Part shown: piece after piece, positions 17,185-49,759 of the stretch
Position numbering within the stretch: position 1 is the first letter of the stretch
Layout: every line of letters begins with the position of its first letter
NCBI GenBank assembly: GCA_021806045.1
Contig: JAJZDI010000008.1
Span: forward strand, 19,408-83,407
Direction: 5' to 3'
Origin: Actinomycetes bacterium
Lineage (GTDB): Bacteria; Actinomycetota; Acidimicrobiia; Acidimicrobiales; RAAP-2
Length of the DNA: 64,000 nt
The notes under the pieces: model-generated
What the model was told of the DNA's origin: nothing
Database searches by the model: none
What the model saw: only the letters and a program-made list of their open reading frames with translations
Position numbers and translations under genes: made by a program

Positions 17185-19146
17185 GTGCCGATAACACCGG
17201 TGATGGGGCGAGGACCCGACCTCCGGTTGGCGGTAGCGGCAGTCCCGGACGGTGACGCCCGGTCCGGTTGGCCCGGGGGCAAGGCCGCCCAACGGGCGGC
17301 GCTCGGCTCGGCGCTGGGGGCTCGCAGCGGCGACGTGCTGTCCAGCTGCCAGCGTGCCTACCGTGAGTACCACGTGGGGGAGGACGCGGCCCTGGTTCGC
17401 CGGGACCCGACGTGGAAGCTGATCGACCTGGCGGTGGGCGCCATCGCCCGGTGGCTCCAGACCGGACAGGCGGCGGACGCCGGCGTCCGGTCCGAGATCG
17501 CCTCACTTGGCCGGTCCGCCGCCCAGCAGCACAGCGTCCCCGGAGCCGTTCCCGCCACCGGGCCGGCCCGGCCTGGCGCGGCCGACGGTTCCCGGACGGG
17601 CGCCGGCGGCCGGAGCCAGGAGGCAGGGGTGGTCGGCCGCCAGCTCTCGGTGGCCATGTTCACCAAGCTCAACTTCTGGTGGAGCGACGCCACCTGCTCG
17701 GTCCTGGAGGAGGAGGGCTGCCGGCTGGGCATCGACGCGGACGTCGTGCGGGAGGCGACGAAGATGGTCATGCGGAGCAGTCAGGCAAGCCTGGTGGACA
17801 TGGCCGCCCGCTACGACGCCGAGCTCCAGGCCCTCCAGGACCACCTGGCCCACCTGGCCCGCCACGACCCGCTGACCGGGCTGGCCAACCGTGCCGTGCT
17901 CCTCGACCGGTTGGAGCGGTCCCTCGCCCGTCTGGCACGGCACGCCGAGGGGCTGGCCGTGGTCTTCATCGACGTCGACAACTTCAAGGCCATCAACGAC
18001 GTCCTCGGCCACGCCGTCGGCGACGCCGTGCTCCAGGAGACGGCGGACCGCCTCACCTCCGAGGTCCGTCCGGAGGACCTGGTGGCCCGGATCGGCGGCG
18101 ACGAGTTCGTCGTCCTCTTCGAGGACCTGGCCCGGCCGGGCGAGGAGGGGCTCCGCCTGGCCGAGCGGCTGCGGACGCGCACGGGCGCCCCCATGTCGGT
18201 GGGCGAGGAGCAGCTCACCCTGACCATCAGCGCCGGCGTGGCCGCCGTGCGCGGTCCGGGGCGGACGACCGAAGAGGTGCTGGCCGAGGCCGACTCGGCC
18301 ATGTACCGGGTGAAGCGGGCGGGGAGGAACCGGGTGGCGTTGGTGGAGCTCGGCTCGGGCGGGGGCCCGGCTCGGTTCGCCATGGCCGGCGGCCTCCACA
18401 CCGCCGTCGAGCGCGGCGAGCTGCGGGTCGTCTACCAGCCCCTGTGGGACGCCCGGACCAGAGGGGTGGCCGGCTTCGAGGCGCTGGTGCGCTGGGAGCA
18501 CCCGGAGCGGGGGACGATCATGCCCCGGGAGTTCGTGCCCATGGCCGAGGAGTCGGGCGTCATCTGGTCCATCGGGTCGTGGGTCCTGCGTGAGGCGTGC
18601 CGGCAGTCGGTGGCGTGGGCGGGGACGTCGCCCACCGGGCCGCGCATCGCCGTCAACGTGTCGGGTCGCCAACTGGTGGAGCCGGCCTTCGTGGACGAGG
18701 TGGCCGGGGCCCTGGCGTCGTCGGGGCTCCCCGCCGGCCGGCTGGTGCTCGAGGCCACCGAGAGCGTCCTGCTGGTCGAGCAGGACGCGTCCCGGGAGGT
18801 GTGCGCCGCCCTGGCCGCCATGGGGGTGCACCTGTCCATCGACGACTTCGGCACCGGCTACGCCTCGCTCGCCTACCTCCAGCGGCTCCCCGTCGACCAG
18901 GTGAAGCTCGACCGGGAGTTCGTGCAGGACGTGGCCGCCGGCGACGACATGCGGGTCATGGGGGCGGTGGTCGCCCTGGCCCACGACCTCGGGATCGAGG
19001 TGGCGGCCGAGGGCGTCGAGACCGAGGAGGAGTTGGCCGTGGTCCGGGCCCTCGGATGCGACGTCATGCAGGGATTCCTGCTCGGTCGCCCGGTGCCGGC
19101 CGAGGCCATGGAGGCAGCGATCGGCCGGCCGCGATCGGCCTCGTGA
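17185..19146 (+). CDS. Cytosolic GGDEF-EAL bifunctional cyclic-di-GMP protein
   Basis: 653 residues with no membrane segment. An N-terminal region of about 215 residues is unassigned: it has a helical part near LSSCQRAYREYHVGEDAAL, a low-complexity linker, and a second helical part (FTKLNFWWSDATCSVLEEEG ... VREATKMVMRSSQASLVDMA). The GGDEF domain has an intact GGDEF at 304-308, preceded by the inhibitory-site RPED five residues upstream. The EAL domain has EAL at 432-434, DDFGTGYASL from 553, KLDREF and EGVET, so the catalytic residues are present. Both synthesis and hydrolysis of c-di-GMP are possible. GTG 17185 is the chosen start. Confidence 0.93.
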   Translation: MPITPVMGRGPDLRLAVAAVPDGDARSGWPGGKAAQRAALGSALGARSGDVLSSCQRAYREYHVGEDAALVRRDPTWKLIDLAVGAIARWLQTGQAADAGVRSEIASLGRSAAQQHSVPGAVPATGPARPGAADGSRTGAGGRSQEAGVVGRQLSVAMFTKLNFWWSDATCSVLEEEGCRLGIDADVVREATKMVMRSSQASLVDMAARYDAELQALQDHLAHLARHDPLTGLANRAVLLDRLERSLARLARHAEGLAVVFIDVDNFKAINDVLGHAVGDAVLQETADRLTSEVRPEDLVARIGGDEFVVLFEDLARPGEEGLRLAERLRTRTGAPMSVGEEQLTLTISAGVAAVRGPGRTTEEVLAEADSAMYRVKRAGRNRVALVELGSGGGPARFAMAGGLHTAVERGELRVVYQPLWDARTRGVAGFEALVRWEHPERGTIMPREFVPMAEESGVIWSIGSWVLREACRQSVAWAGTSPTGPRIAVNVSGRQLVEPAFVDEVAGALASSGLPAGRLVLEATESVLLVEQDASREVCAALAAMGVHLSIDDFGTGYASLAYLQRLPVDQVKLDREFVQDVAAGDDMRVMGAVVALAHDLGIEVAAEGVETEEELAVVRALGCDVMQGFLLGRPVPAEAMEAAIGRPRSAS

Positions 19147-43517: not shown

Positions 43518-45668
43518 TCACGCCCCGTCGCCCGCAGTGGCCACCTGGTTCCTGCCCGCCTGCTTGGCGGCGTAGAGAGCGCTGTCCGCCCGTGCGACGA
43601 GCGAGTCGGTGCTGTCGCCCGTGCGCCGTTCGACGATGCCGATGGAGCAGGGGCCGGGAGCGGCCAGGCGGAGCCGTTCGACCAGGGCGGCTGCTTCGCC
43701 GAGCGCACACCCCGGCAGGAGCAGGACGAACTCGTCGCCCCCGTAGCGGAAGAGAAGGTCGGTGGGCCGGACGCCGTTCCGCCACTCGTCGGCGAACCGG
43801 CGGAGGAGGGCGTCGCCCGCGTGATGCCCCGAGGCGTCGTTCACGTCCTTGAAGTGGTCGAGGTCGATCACGGCGACAGCGAGCGGGGTGCCGGTGCGTG
43901 TCGACACGGCGACGCTGCGCGCCAGCTCGCGCTCGAGGGCGGCGCGGTTGGGGAGACCGGTCACGGCGTCGATCCGGGCCTGTTGCTGGAGCACCTGGTT
44001 CAGGTGGCCGACGAGCACGCCGATGCCGGCGGCGGTGTACACGGTGAGGATTGCCACGCTCGCCGTGTTGTGGCTGACGGTCGAGACGACGAAGCCGATG
44101 GTGAACGCGGAGCCGAGTGCACAGTAGAAGGCGGCAAGGCGCCATGAGAAGACGGTGAATGCGTACATCCAGATCCAGGCGAAGATGCCGAGCGCGACGA
44201 TGCCCTCGGGGCCGCTCCGGGCGAGGATCGACCCCGTCGCTACCGCGACCATGCCCACCACCAACCCGATGTGGATGGCGGCCATCCCCACCTGGCGCGC
44301 CAGCCACCGTGCCCCGGCCGCCACGGCCGCACCGACGACCAACGCGGTCGCGGTGATGGCCGCAGCCGGGGCCACGCGGGCGCCGGGGATCGGGTCGAAG
44401 GTGATCTGGGGCAGGTAGATGGCTCCGGCGGCCACGTAGAGCATGCCCATCACCCGGACGAGGCGCACCACCCGGTCTGCGGTCGGTGACGGGCGGCCGG
44501 GGGCGGTCCGGCCGGTGCGGGTGCGCACCACGGTGGCCAGGGTGGCTGCTGGCACCACCGGTGCAGCCGTGCGTGCCGGTCCCACGTCGTCGCCGGCACC
44601 ATCGGGCCCGAGGACAGCGAGCACGGCGGCGTCGGGTGTAGCGGTGTCGGGTGCCTGGACCACCCGCCCCCGTCCTTCGCGCTTGGCGCGGTAGAGGGCG
44701 GCGTCGGCCCGGGCCAGGACCGTGTCGATCGGCTCGCCCGGTCGCCATTCGGCGACTCCGGCCGAACACGGGTGCCCGCCGGCCCGTCGGAGTTCGTCGA
44801 CGACGACGGCGGCCTGGGATGCGCTGAGCCCGGGCATGACGGCGACGAACTCGTCGCCGCCGTAGCGGGCGAGCGAGGCCTGGGGGTGGAGCATGCGGCT
44901 CCATGTGTCGGCTGCTGTCCGCAACACGCCGTCGCCAGCGTGGTGCCCGGCCGAATCGTTCACCTCCTTGAAGCGATCGAGGTCGAGCACGGCGATGGCC
45001 AGTGGCGCTCCTGTTCTGGTGGCGCCAGCTGCCTCCCGCTCCAGGATGGCCGGGAGCGCCTGGCGGTTGGGGAGGCCGGTGAGATGGTCCTCGATGGAGG
45101 TGCGGAGCAGGAGGGACCGGAAGTAGCCGGCGGTCAGCGATCCCGCGGCGATGGTGCCGACGACGTCGAGCGCGCACCCGACCGGGGTGACGGCGACGGT
45201 GGCGAGCACGAGGGCGATGCACAGCGCCCCCGCGGCAACAAGATGGGGGACCGCCTCACGGTGGGGCAGGTAGGCGAAGGCGACGAGCGGCAGCCACGCG
45301 AAGTACCCGAGACCCGCCAACGCGGTGGTCCCGCCGTGTCCGCACCACACGGCGACGGCGACGACTGCCAGTGCCATTGTCAGCACCCCGTGGACGGTGA
45401 GCCTGGACAGGCCCCGGCCGGTCCGCCGCACGTGGACGATGAGGGCGAGGGCGGTGACGACGGCCACACCGCCGACGGCCAGGGCGGGTACCCGCTCCGC
45501 CCCCGGCGTACGGTCGAGTGCGATGGCCACCATGCTGACGGCCGACGCCGACGCGAGCATCGCGCTGAGGACGGAAGCGACGCCGGTGCCCATGAACTCG
45601 GGACGGTCCCTACCGGAGCGTGGCCGCGCTGGCTCACGTGCGCGCTCGGTCCGCCACGGTGCCCCCAT
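43518..45668 (-). CDS. Tandem membrane diguanylate cyclase: two (6-helix membrane block + GGDEF) halves
   Basis: 716 residues. The first half has about six hydrophobic helices to residue 175 and a GGDEF domain (YGGDEF, 270-274). The second half repeats the pattern: about six helices (near 390-550) and a second GGDEF domain (643-647). Both halves share VLDLDRFKEVNDSAGHHAGD / VIDLDHFKDVNDASGHHAGD wording, so the gene looks like an internal duplication. The second domain has an RxxD inhibitory site (RPTD) five residues before GGDEF; the first has HPQA there and lacks it. The start may be the ATG at residue 26 rather than at 45668. Confidence 0.92.
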   Translation of the reverse strand: MGAPWRTERAREPARPRSGRDRPEFMGTGVASVLSAMLASASAVSMVAIALDRTPGAERVPALAVGGVAVVTALALIVHVRRTGRGLSRLTVHGVLTMALAVVAVAVWCGHGGTTALAGLGYFAWLPLVAFAYLPHREAVPHLVAAGALCIALVLATVAVTPVGCALDVVGTIAAGSLTAGYFRSLLLRTSIEDHLTGLPNRQALPAILEREAAGATRTGAPLAIAVLDLDRFKEVNDSAGHHAGDGVLRTAADTWSRMLHPQASLARYGGDEFVAVMPGLSASQAAVVVDELRRAGGHPCSAGVAEWRPGEPIDTVLARADAALYRAKREGRGRVVQAPDTATPDAAVLAVLGPDGAGDDVGPARTAAPVVPAATLATVVRTRTGRTAPGRPSPTADRVVRLVRVMGMLYVAAGAIYLPQITFDPIPGARVAPAAAITATALVVGAAVAAGARWLARQVGMAAIHIGLVVGMVAVATGSILARSGPEGIVALGIFAWIWMYAFTVFSWRLAAFYCALGSAFTIGFVVSTVSHNTASVAILTVYTAAGIGVLVGHLNQVLQQQARIDAVTGLPNRAALERELARSVAVSTRTGTPLAVAVIDLDHFKDVNDASGHHAGDALLRRFADEWRNGVRPTDLLFRYGGDEFVLLLPGCALGEAAALVERLRLAAPGPCSIGIVERRTGDSTDSLVARADSALYAAKQAGRNQVATAGDGA

Positions 45669-45780: not shown

Positions 45781-46632
45781 GTGGATCTGGGTCCCCTCGG
45801 CGTGTGGTGGAGCGGCACCTGGCGCTCGGCCGGCGATCCGGACGCCGACGTCGCCGCCGAGCTGGAACGTGCCGGGTACGGAGCGCTGTGGTCGTCCGGC
45901 GGGTTCGAGCCCGGCCTGGCGCCGAGGTTCGCCAGACTGCTGGCTTCGACGACGACGGCGGTGGTGGCGAGCGGCATCGCCAGCATCTGGGCGACCCCGG
46001 CCGACGAGCTGGCTCGAGCGGCGGCCGAGCTCGAGGCGGCGGCACCCGGCCGCTTCCTCCTGGGGATCGGGGCCAGCCACGAGCTCATCGTCGAGGGGTA
46101 CCGCCGGCCCTATGCGCACATGGTCGCCTACCTCGATGCGCTCGACGCCGCAGACCCGCCCGTGCCTGCTGATCGGCGGATCCTGGCCGCACTGGGCCCG
46201 AAGATGCTGGCACTGGCCGGCGAGCGATCGGCCGGAGCTCACCCGTACTTCGTGCCGGTCGAGCACACGGCCCGTGCTCGCGACATCCTCGGGCACGGCC
46301 CGCTCCTCGCTCCAGAGGTGACAGTCGTCCTCGAGGAGGAGGCGGGACGGGCACGGCAGCTCGCCCGGACCTTCACCACCGGCTATCTGGCCCTGCCCAA
46401 CTATGCCCAGAACCTGCGGTCACTCGGGTTCAGCGAGGAGGACCTGGCCGGCGGTGGCAGCGATCGGCTGGTCGATGCGGTGGTGGCGTGGGGGAGCCTC
46501 GAGCGGGTGGCGGCACGCGTGCGTGACCACCACGAGGCGGGTGCCGACCACGTGTGCATCCAGGTGGTGACGGACGCCGAGGGGTTCCCGCTCGAGTCCT
46601 ACCGGCGCCTGGCCGAGGCGCTGGCGAGCTGA
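45781..46632 (+). CDS. LLM-class F420-dependent oxidoreductase (MSMEG_4141-like)
   Basis: 283 residues. LGVWWSGTWRSAGDPDADVA, ELERAGYGALWSSGG, AVVASGIASIWATPADELAR, GRFLLGIGASHELIVEGYRRPY and ILAALGPKMLALAGERSAGAHPYFVP match the TIGR03620-type F420 oxidoreductases in order and spacing. GTG 45781 gives MDLGPLGVWWSG. The substrate is unknown. It is divergent from the tandem GGDEF gene. Confidence 0.87.
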   Translation: MDLGPLGVWWSGTWRSAGDPDADVAAELERAGYGALWSSGGFEPGLAPRFARLLASTTTAVVASGIASIWATPADELARAAAELEAAAPGRFLLGIGASHELIVEGYRRPYAHMVAYLDALDAADPPVPADRRILAALGPKMLALAGERSAGAHPYFVPVEHTARARDILGHGPLLAPEVTVVLEEEAGRARQLARTFTTGYLALPNYAQNLRSLGFSEEDLAGGGSDRLVDAVVAWGSLERVAARVRDHHEAGADHVCIQVVTDAEGFPLESYRRLAEALAS

Positions 46633-46654: not shown

Positions 46655-47695
46655 TCAGGGCCGCCGGTAGGAGAGCACGGTGCCGGCGGATGTGCCGGCC
46701 ATGCACCACCGGACGGTGGGGCACGACAGGGCGGTGATCGGGGTGCCGGCTGTGGCCGGTGCGGGTGCCGACCAGTCGGTTCCGTTCCACACCATTGCGT
46801 GACCGGTGCTGTCACCGGCCACGCAGAACTGTGGTGATCCGCACGAGATGGCCGTGAGCCTTCGTGGGGACGCCCCGGTCGTGGCGGGGTCGATGGTCCG
46901 TGGGGGCGACCACGAGGTGCCGTTCCACGTCATGTCGTTGCCGGCCGAGTCGATCGTCACGCAGAACGAGGTGCTCGGGCACGAGATGCCGGTGAACTGG
47001 CCGAGGGGGTCGCCGGTGTCGGGCTTGGACCACGACGTGCCGTTCCACTGCGACAGTCCGCCTCCGGCGGCCATGCAGAACGACGGGGAGACGCAGGAGA
47101 TGGCCGAGGCGCTGCCCCAGGCGTTGATCGCCGCCGACCACGACGATCCGTCGAACGTGAAGCCGTCACCGATGCCGTCGATGGCCGCGCAGAAGGATCC
47201 GGGCGCGCACCCGACAGCCTGGAGGGGACGGGCCCCGGGAAGTGGCGCCGGCGACGACCACGAGATGCCGTTCCACATCGCCACCAGGTTGGCGGACGGG
47301 ACGGCGATGCACAGGGAGGCTCCACCGCAGGCGAGGAGCGGGCCGGGCTGACCGGCCGGCGGAGGCGGGCCGACCGCCGGGTACTCGATCCAGCCTTTCG
47401 ACCCGAACAGGTACGGGCGGGCTGCCGCGTCGAGTGCGACGCAGTGGGTGGAGCTGGCACAGGCCAGCGCGGCGACGGCCACACCATTCGACAGCGTCGA
47501 CGGCGCCGACCAGCCGGCGGCGGCAGGTCTCGTGGTCGCCGGGTGCGGCCCGGCTCCACTCGTCGACGGGGACACGCCCGGGGTGCCACACCCGGCGGTG
47601 ATGGCAGCGACCAGGCCGAGGGGGGCGAGCGAGCGGAGCGCCCTGCCCCGTCGGTCCGTCGGGGCACCAAGGTGGGAGTAGCGGGAGCGGCTCAC
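46655..47695 (-). CDS. Lipoprotein with seven CX5C blades (predicted beta-propeller)
   Basis: 346 residues. A signal peptide ends in the lipobox TAGC (Cys36). A repeat follows seven times, each with a CX5C pair such as CASSTHC, CGGASLC, CAPGSFC, CVSPSFC, CPSTSFC, CGSPQFC and CPTVRWC. Most blades also have a WNGTSWSxP strand. Seven repeats with one cysteine pair each fit a seven-bladed propeller stitched by a disulfide in every blade. The ligand is unknown. GTG 47695 gives the clean signal sequence. It is followed upstream, on the same strand, by a large membrane protein. Confidence 0.75.
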   Translation of the reverse strand: MSRSRYSHLGAPTDRRGRALRSLAPLGLVAAITAGCGTPGVSPSTSGAGPHPATTRPAAAGWSAPSTLSNGVAVAALACASSTHCVALDAAARPYLFGSKGWIEYPAVGPPPPAGQPGPLLACGGASLCIAVPSANLVAMWNGISWSSPAPLPGARPLQAVGCAPGSFCAAIDGIGDGFTFDGSSWSAAINAWGSASAISCVSPSFCMAAGGGLSQWNGTSWSKPDTGDPLGQFTGISCPSTSFCVTIDSAGNDMTWNGTSWSPPRTIDPATTGASPRRLTAISCGSPQFCVAGDSTGHAMVWNGTDWSAPAPATAGTPITALSCPTVRWCMAGTSAGTVLSYRRP

Positions 47696-47791
47696 GGCGT
47701 GATCGTTGCACGCCCGGCCTGGGCCCGGCACACCTTCCGCCAGGCGCACCGGTTCGCGAGCGGTGGCCACCCGGCCGGTGACCATCGACGA

Positions 47792-49453
47792 TCAGCCCGA
47801 TCGCGGTGCTGGTGCCGACTGACCTGGAACGAGGGTGGCGACCGGCCGCCCGCGGGGGAACGTGACCCGCACCTGCCTGATGCCGGGCAGCGGCCCTGCC
47901 TGGGGCCCGATGCCGGCTGCGTACCACGCCGACATCCGGACGTCGTACCCCTGAGTGCGGGCCAGCCAGGCGACGCCGAGCGTGAGTAGGACGTTCGAGA
48001 GGCCCTCGAGGGTGGGCAACGCCGGGTCGGGAACAATGGTCATCTGCACCGGCTGGCGACCGAGCACCGGCCGCATGGCGGTGTCGATGGCGCGAGCCTG
48101 GGCCGAGATGCGTGCGGCCAGCGCCAGCGATGGGTCGTCCCGCTCGGCGGCGAGGGACGCCGGCACGCTGGCGGCCGCGGCCAACGACGCACCTATCAGG
48201 GCGATGGTGCCCACCTGCCGCCAGCGCGGGTGGCCTGCGGTGGCAGGGCGGCCCAGGCGCTGCTGTCGGTGCGCATGTCGCCACCGGACGGCGGCCTGGC
48301 AGCCGGTGATCCCGCCCCAGGTAAGGACCAGCCACGAGAGGATGCCAGCCGCATCCGCTGAGCGCAGCGTGTAGTGCAGGGCAAGGAACTGCCCGGATGG
48401 GAATCGGGCGACCGACACGACCACCCCGGCGTCGAGGGCGAGAGCGACGGCCGCGGCCGCACCCAGTGAGGTGTGGTGGGAGCGGAGCGCGCCGATCGCC
48501 ATCGCCAGCAGGAGCACGGTGACGACGACAGCCGCGCCCAGGTCCCCCTGGACGATGGCGCCGATGAAGGTGAAGAAGGGCATGGTGGCCAGTTGCTGCG
48601 TCCACAGTGGATGGGGACCGACGGCGGTCCCCAGGGCGCGGACAGCGTCCAGCCATCCGATCACGTGATGGCCGCCGGTGCCCTGGAGGATGGCGGTGAG
48701 GTTGCCCGGCCGACCTGTCAGTTGCTGGATGACGGTGGGCGTCCAACACGCCACTCCTATCGCGGTGGTAACCAGAACCGGACCGCGCCATGACCTGCGA
48801 GTTCCCGCTGGCGTGGCTGCCAGGCCCAGGCCGAGCGCCACGGCGACCACCCCGGGTACGGCGACGGCGAAGGACAGGTGGCACTGCGCAGCTATCGACC
48901 CGGCGGTGACCAGTGCCGGCAGCCACCGGCGTCGCCCGCTACCGACCGCCACCGCGCAGGCAGCCATGGCCACGTACCAGCACAGTCCGATGCTGGGGTT
49001 CCACGCCGGGTCGAGAGGCATCTCGGGGAGGGCAAGGGCGAGCACGGGGAAGACGGCAGCGGCGGCCAGGGCGCCCATCGGACCGCCCACCGCCCTGCCG
49101 GCGGTGACCGTCACCCCTGCAGCCACCGCGCACCACAGCGCCGCCCCCCACAGGGTGCCATGGGCCGGATCCAGGTGGACGGGCACGGTGAGCAGCCAGT
49201 AGAGGAGGGGGCCGAGGTCGAATGCGGTGTGCCCCGGCGATCGATCCAGCGTGATCTGTCCGACGAGCGGACCGTGGGTCGACAGCACATCGGCCGCCCG
49301 CCACGAGATGACGGCGTCGTCGCCGTACGGCAACCAGCCCCGAGTCGCGTCGAGCACTGCTCCGCCGGCGAACGGCGCCAGCGCCACCAGGTAGGCGACC
49401 ACGACGGCCACGTGTGCCGCTACCCGCCGGGGGCGGCCACCGGTGGTCGCCAT
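47792..49453 (-). CDS. Polytopic membrane protein, glycosyltransferase-39-like layout
   Basis: 553 residues with 10 or more hydrophobic helices. The early loop (GWLPYGDDAVISWRAADVLSTHGPLVGQIT) with paired Asp residues and the overall arrangement resemble GT-C mannosyl/arabinosyltransferases, but the family is not firm. The C-terminal 150 residues form a soluble domain with a MTIVPDPALPTLEGLSNVLL stretch. ATG 49453 is chosen; GTG 49696 would add 81 low-complexity residues. The stretch 49454-49759 otherwise holds no gene. The lipoprotein gene lies 96 bases downstream on the same strand. Confidence 0.65.
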   Translation of the reverse strand: MATTGGRPRRVAAHVAVVVAYLVALAPFAGGAVLDATRGWLPYGDDAVISWRAADVLSTHGPLVGQITLDRSPGHTAFDLGPLLYWLLTVPVHLDPAHGTLWGAALWCAVAAGVTVTAGRAVGGPMGALAAAAVFPVLALALPEMPLDPAWNPSIGLCWYVAMAACAVAVGSGRRRWLPALVTAGSIAAQCHLSFAVAVPGVVAVALGLGLAATPAGTRRSWRGPVLVTTAIGVACWTPTVIQQLTGRPGNLTAILQGTGGHHVIGWLDAVRALGTAVGPHPLWTQQLATMPFFTFIGAIVQGDLGAAVVVTVLLLAMAIGALRSHHTSLGAAAAVALALDAGVVVSVARFPSGQFLALHYTLRSADAAGILSWLVLTWGGITGCQAAVRWRHAHRQQRLGRPATAGHPRWRQVGTIALIGASLAAAASVPASLAAERDDPSLALAARISAQARAIDTAMRPVLGRQPVQMTIVPDPALPTLEGLSNVLLTLGVAWLARTQGYDVRMSAWYAAGIGPQAGPLPGIRQVRVTFPRGRPVATLVPGQSAPAPRSG

Positions 49454-49759
49454 CCCTGCGGCGTGCTCCCCGCTGTCCCGCCGGCCAGGCGACGAGCTGG
49501 TGTTCCCGGCAGGAACGGGAACAACGCCTGGCTGGCTTGCCTCTGTCGTCGCCACCACCGTTGACTCCCGTCTGGTCGCCCGATCCCGCCCCCTGCGGCA
49601 GGGGCGACAGCGTTGGCTGCTGGCCAGGTTCAGCTCGCCGTGTGGCGAGATCGTAGTGCCCCGCCATCCGGTGATCTGGTTGGTGTCCGTGCGCACAGCA
49701 CCGTCGCGTGTTCGGCATGTACCGATCTCGTCGCGCCGGCGGGACAGCCGGGTGGGGGG

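Follow-up and report, generated by a model that had tools for sequence, protein, structure and literature searches.

Background

The current picture of diguanylate cyclases is one of two like subunits that dimerize and are inhibited symmetrically by their product, and among the membrane-bound enzymes SadC has an architecture similar to that of single units composed of six transmembrane helices and a GGDEF domain (6TM-GGDEF). Catalysis needs two GGDEF domains placed face to face, with one GTP on each (PMC7288161). Inhibition in PleD and DgcR occurs when the primary inhibitory site (I-site; RxxD, joined by R390 in PleD) is cross-linked to a secondary arginine of the partner, reciprocally (PMC8041772, PMC7288161). 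The cross-linking ligand is a c-di-GMP dimer, and mutation of RxxD in DgcR raises the Ki almost 50-fold without lowering the activated kcat (PMC8041772). The RxxD motif is missing from a good share of GGDEF domains generally, and Dcsbis (PA2771) is an active diguanylate cyclase with natural relief of product inhibition (PMC4937426). Outside the GGDEF enzymes, mammalian membrane adenylyl cyclases carry two unequal halves in one chain, in the order 6TM-cyclase-6TM-cyclase, and membrane adenylyl cyclase derived from a one-unit bacterial 6TM form (relative Rv1625c/Cya) by duplication and fusion (PMC9552081, PMC9433096).

The protein described here has that layout, built from GGDEF domains. It is encoded in the window, the whole stretch of 64,000 nucleotides analysed from a genome of the order Acidimicrobiales, and its N-terminal (N) and C-terminal (C) halves each resemble the single-unit 6TM-GGDEF proteins of the same order (L137, L138, L143 and L022) in having a six-helix unit, a short connector, DxLTG and GGDEF. 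These relatives differ in that each chain has one unit, all carry RxxD and pairing must take place between chains. The C half shares the catalytic A-site and the primary I-site (RxxD, R390) of PleD, WspR and DgcR, but these are homodimers with two equal I-sites, whereas the tandem chain has none in one half. That loss came about by substitution, in contrast to Dcsbis, where the I-site is sterically covered by the GAF loop of the partner. The GGDEF-GGDEF heteromers of Escherichia coli pair dissimilar GGDEF domains, as we propose for the tandem, but they join separate proteins and involve above all degenerate domains (PMC5635695). The likeness to membrane adenylyl cyclases is one of layout only, an analogy and not membership: both catalytic domains of the tandem are GGDEF domains rather than class III nucleotide cyclase domains, the product is another, the two have no demonstrated sequence relation, and the altered site in the tandem is the inhibitory and not the catalytic one. 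Our preferred account, to which we give an even chance, is of a membrane diguanylate cyclase that descends, through duplication and fusion, from a 6TM-GGDEF gene of the kind common in the order and works as an intramolecular pseudo-heterodimer partly relieved of feedback.

A duplicated membrane and GGDEF unit in one chain

The gene is an open reading frame of 716 aa on the minus strand at 43518-45668 with an ATG start, and an alternative start is possible at M26 (position 45593). Its parts are as follows.

43518..45668, minus strand: tandem (6TM-GGDEF)x2 protein, whole gene, 716 aa (open reading frame, Pfam, self-alignment, two full-length homologous tandems in G022, a genome of another genus)
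45113..45593, minus strand: membrane unit of the N half, ~aa 26-185, six predicted helices, without Pfam match (hydropathy, low-confidence model)
44649..45089, minus strand: GGDEF domain of the N half, aa 194-340, A-site intact, without I-site (Pfam, alignment)
44478..44648, minus strand: linker between the halves, aa 341-397, Arg/Pro/Ala-rich (alignment of tandems)
43989..44465, minus strand: membrane unit of the C half, aa 402-560, six predicted helices (hydropathy, AlphaFold2)
43533..43970, minus strand: GGDEF domain of the C half, aa 567-712, A-site and I-site intact (Pfam, alignment, model)

Pfam returned GGDEF-type families alone for the protein, with two stretches matching PF00990 (E 2.7e-70 for the whole protein; 125.4 and 113.5 bits for the separate matches of the two halves), and the GGDEF motifs start at aa 270 in the N half and aa 643 in the C half. 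The initial annotation had read the chain as two copies of about six helices followed by GGDEF, and self-alignment bore this out almost end to end: the two halves aligned with a score of 572 against 47 ± 7 (maximum 74) for shuffled sequences, near gapless across ~340 residues. Taken separately, the GGDEF parts scored 406 (shuffles 32 ± 6) and the membrane parts 154 (shuffles 49 ± 8, maximum 80). The latter score lies far above the shuffles, and the two membrane units are therefore homologous copies rather than merely alike in composition. Collectively, these alignments confirm that, within the 716-aa protein, a unit of six membrane helices and a GGDEF domain has been duplicated. The linker is the variable part, differing in length and sequence among tandem relatives (19-27% identity).

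Hydropathy located 5-6 hydrophobic helices ahead of each GGDEF domain (aa 26-183 and aa 399-557), which, together with the homology of the membrane parts, upholds the view that both halves are membrane-embedded. AlphaFold2 predicted six helices ahead of the GGDEF domain when the C half was modelled alone (membrane pLDDT ~45-60) and, at low confidence, helices at residues 21-53, 59-83, 88-109, 116-131, 139-160 and 164-194 of the N half in the full-length model; GGDEF parts were of high confidence in these models, membrane helices of low (pLDDT about 45-60). A predicted count of six helices per membrane unit is thus supported by hydropathy and structure prediction alike. An even number of helices, with an Arg-rich N-terminus and linker, would place both GGDEF domains in the cytoplasm.

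None of 23 6TM units examined matched a Pfam membrane-sensor family (MASE and others), only GGDEF-type families recurring among them, and a known sensor domain as the 6TM unit was rejected on this count (0/23). A Foldseek search with the C-half model matched PleD, WspR and DgcB, the matches falling on the GGDEF part, with nothing convincing for the membrane part (pLDDT 45-60).

Distribution of the tandem

Relatives were sought in near genomes and then with a profile of the tandem against 172 genomes of the family. Full-length tandems were present in two of the 172, namely the window genome (one) and G022 (two), the latter belonging to another genus of the same family. In G022 the frames measure 750 aa (contig C339) and 837 aa (contig C258), and their full-length identity to the window protein is 48 and 44%, respectively. 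Among 76 GGDEF matches in four near genomes, same-frame pairs were confined to these three tandems; a protein-query scan of genome contigs and open reading frame scans otherwise recovered single-GGDEF frames only. No further tandem appeared in the class sample (296 genomes) or the phylum sample (296 genomes) at E <= 1e-75, nor, among the matches listed, another full-length tandem in the order sample (248 genomes, G022 not being part of it), and a plasmid search gave one partial match only. The intact tandem is rare within the genomes sampled. The initial annotation had allowed that the architecture might already be widely described as a fixed family; a search of open-access papers found no description of the tandem layout.

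Single 6TM-GGDEF units, 330-430 aa long, occur commonly throughout the order, and the closest relatives of each tandem half fall among 55 sampled single units. In one single-unit relative (L033:761-1969), some eleven residues are inserted after RxxD and before GGDEF.

Origin by a single fusion and decay in a sister species

A 43-unit maximum-likelihood tree placed the N halves in one clade (100/99) and the C halves in another (100/97), with the two clades as sisters (100/99), so that a single duplication and fusion predates both the split of the genera and the duplication inside G022. Two independent fusions are rejected by the same tree. An assembly chimera was likewise rejected: the locus is syntenic with that of a genome of the same genus (G001), where ammonium transporter, PucR regulator and luciferase-like gene flank it, and the two further tandems stand on separate contigs of G022.

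Unfused 6TM-GGDEF genes also occur as neighbouring pairs in the same direction, at L203:858-2984 (~60 bp apart), L187:1393-4131 and L049:2911-5325; in the last, from Trueperaceae, the second frame opens right after the stop of the first. Adjacent pairs of this kind are a plausible, and likely, state before fusion.

At the syntenic place in G001 (contig C151, L129:4266-5231) lies a decayed remnant of the tandem, which has lost much of the membrane unit of the N half, that of the C half entirely and the greater part of the second GGDEF domain; it carries internal deletions, and its end, within the second GGDEF, is frame-shifted. Most likely, then, the ancestor of the window's genus already had the tandem, with which one of its descendants could dispense.

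Catalytic sites are kept in both halves and the inhibitory site in one

The A-site residues (PleD D327, N335, H340, D344, GG[DE]EF and K442) are complete by alignment in both the N and the C half, and the earlier view that both active sites are intact holds. At the I-site position the N half reads HPQA and the C half RPTD, so that RxxD indeed stands in the second half only, an asymmetry common to all three intact tandems found. Pocket positions were placed through alignment with PleD and the descriptions in PMC7288161 and PMC8041772. In the C half of the window protein, R634, D637 and R665 correspond to PleD R359, D362 and R390, making the primary I-site complete; in the N half the same positions hold H261, A264 and E292. 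A secondary I-site arginine was sought in the tandem and not located, its position not being conserved between enzymes.

A survey of 61 aligned units (55 single units, three N halves and three C halves) set these residues against the family background. Equivalents of PleD D327, N335, H340, D344, D/E370, E371 and K442 are kept in 61/61 units. The R359-D362-R390 triplet is RDR in 52/55 single units and 3/3 C halves, the remaining three single units having K (two) or Q (one) at the last position (RDK/RDQ), and every single unit (55) and every C half (three) sampled has RxxD. The N-half triplets are HAE, GDG and QHA, with R359 and R390 gone in 3/3. By alignment, then, the N half no longer has the pocket, and there the substituted positions vary freely and the catalytic positions stay fixed. 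Because the family background is full retention, loss of RxxD in the N half is informative; it is most simply read as a single loss on the tree, inherited by three descendants, not as three independent observations.

These patterns bear on two other accounts of the protein. The fusion may have been a neutral duplication kept by drift, with no special function and an accidental I-site difference; the rarity of the tandem (2 genera, 172 family genomes) and its decay in the sister species G001 fit such a history. Yet all three tandems, from two genera and >50% diverged, are still full-length, with both A-sites and the same asymmetry, whereas a copy free of constraint should have lost residues of the A-site along with those of the I-site, which leaves drift very unlikely in our judgement.

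Alternatively, the N half might be mainly regulatory, binding GTP or the C half and tuning the latter with little catalysis of its own, like degenerate GGDEF domains elsewhere; in E. coli, such domains can associate with other GGDEF partners (PMC5635695). One G022 tandem makes this somewhat likelier, in that LPNR is replaced by LPGR, and the PleD R446 position is occupied by Gly, in its N half (C258, L127), which may be catalytically weak; the R446 position varies in single units too. By contrast, the N halves of the window protein and L128 hold every catalytic residue examined. Identity among the three tandems is 58-65% for the N GGDEF and 53-62% for the C GGDEF, and with the two equally conserved neither visibly drifts as a dead copy. 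A mainly regulatory N half is accordingly a reading that we regard as unlikely, if less so than drift.

Proposed mechanism

For the intramolecular pseudo-heterodimer that we favour, the two membrane bundles would associate as two copies of the single-unit ancestor would in a homodimer, and the flexible linker would tether the two GGDEF domains on the cytoplasmic side. Within one chain the GGDEF domain of the N half would come to face that of the C half, each carrying GTP, and the two would form c-di-GMP; such synthesis we infer from the residues kept at both A-sites. The membrane units probably sense a signal, possibly two different ones. Intrachain pairing would draw its strongest support, by analogy, from the layout of the membrane adenylyl cyclases.

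With no primary I-site in the N half, no more than one product cross-link of the usual two could form in an N:C pair, and product feedback on the tandem protein is probably weakened. Any residual feedback would have to come from the C half, by an intrachain half-lock or by a C:C cross-link between chains; for a complete product lock, the C halves of two chains would have to pair. The full-length AlphaFold2 model (pTM 0.38), whose alignment had limited depth and left out relatives from the genome search, gave no reliable placement of the halves.

Pairing could instead be homotypic, N:N and C:C in a dimer of chains, giving two cyclases on one scaffold, perhaps with separate signals, of which N:N would be uninhibited and C:C product-inhibited. 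Core catalytic residues are kept in both halves; the divergence between the N and C units is what interfaces specific to each homodimer would permit; and a C:C pair would find in its own half the complete inhibitory pocket that it needs. Against this, tethering of freshly duplicated identical halves would favour intrachain pairing at birth, and membrane adenylyl cyclases, which have the same layout, are pseudo-heterodimers (PMC9433096, PMC9552081). We rate homotypic pairing at about one chance in four.

Genomic surroundings and c-di-GMP complement

The tandem gene stands alone, convergent with a PucR-type regulator gene (41835-43451) and divergent from a luciferase-like oxidoreductase gene (45781-46632). 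An ammonium transporter gene (40490-41758) comes before that of the PucR-type regulator; the order from transporter to regulator is the same in G001, and nitrogen control is possible. Rfam and terminator scans around the tandem gene were empty, as was a promoter scan, from which almost nothing is expected in such GC-rich DNA.

Two minus-strand frames further along the window have no Pfam match at E 0.001: one at 46655-47785 with a lipoprotein-like stretch and repeated WNG-x-SW motifs, and one at 47792-49696 with many hydrophobic segments.

The window genome (G000) contains 16 GGDEF matches and ten EAL match stretches, the latter in nine reading frames. One of the GGDEF matches lies elsewhere in the window, at 17857-18333 (C2:37264-37740), in a 660-aa frame with an EAL match just downstream (C2:37801-38499). 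No PilZ domain match was found in the genome, and its c-di-GMP receptors are probably of a kind other than PilZ.

Significance

The tandem is genuine, rare and lineage-specific, a variation on an enzyme type already known, and its asymmetry is conserved and interpretable. Somewhat short of an even chance, in our estimation, is the fuller reading of it as a natural single-chain intramolecular pseudo-heterodimer with feedback confined to one half, and as an independent arrival at the (6TM-cyclase)x2 design of animal membrane adenylyl cyclases. The tandem may serve as a scaffold for a single-chain c-di-GMP synthase. If the fuller reading is true, it would provide an independent replicate of the membrane adenylyl cyclase duplication, for asking what such duplications buy, and the catalysis and feedback of each half would be separately changeable, which a homodimer does not permit.
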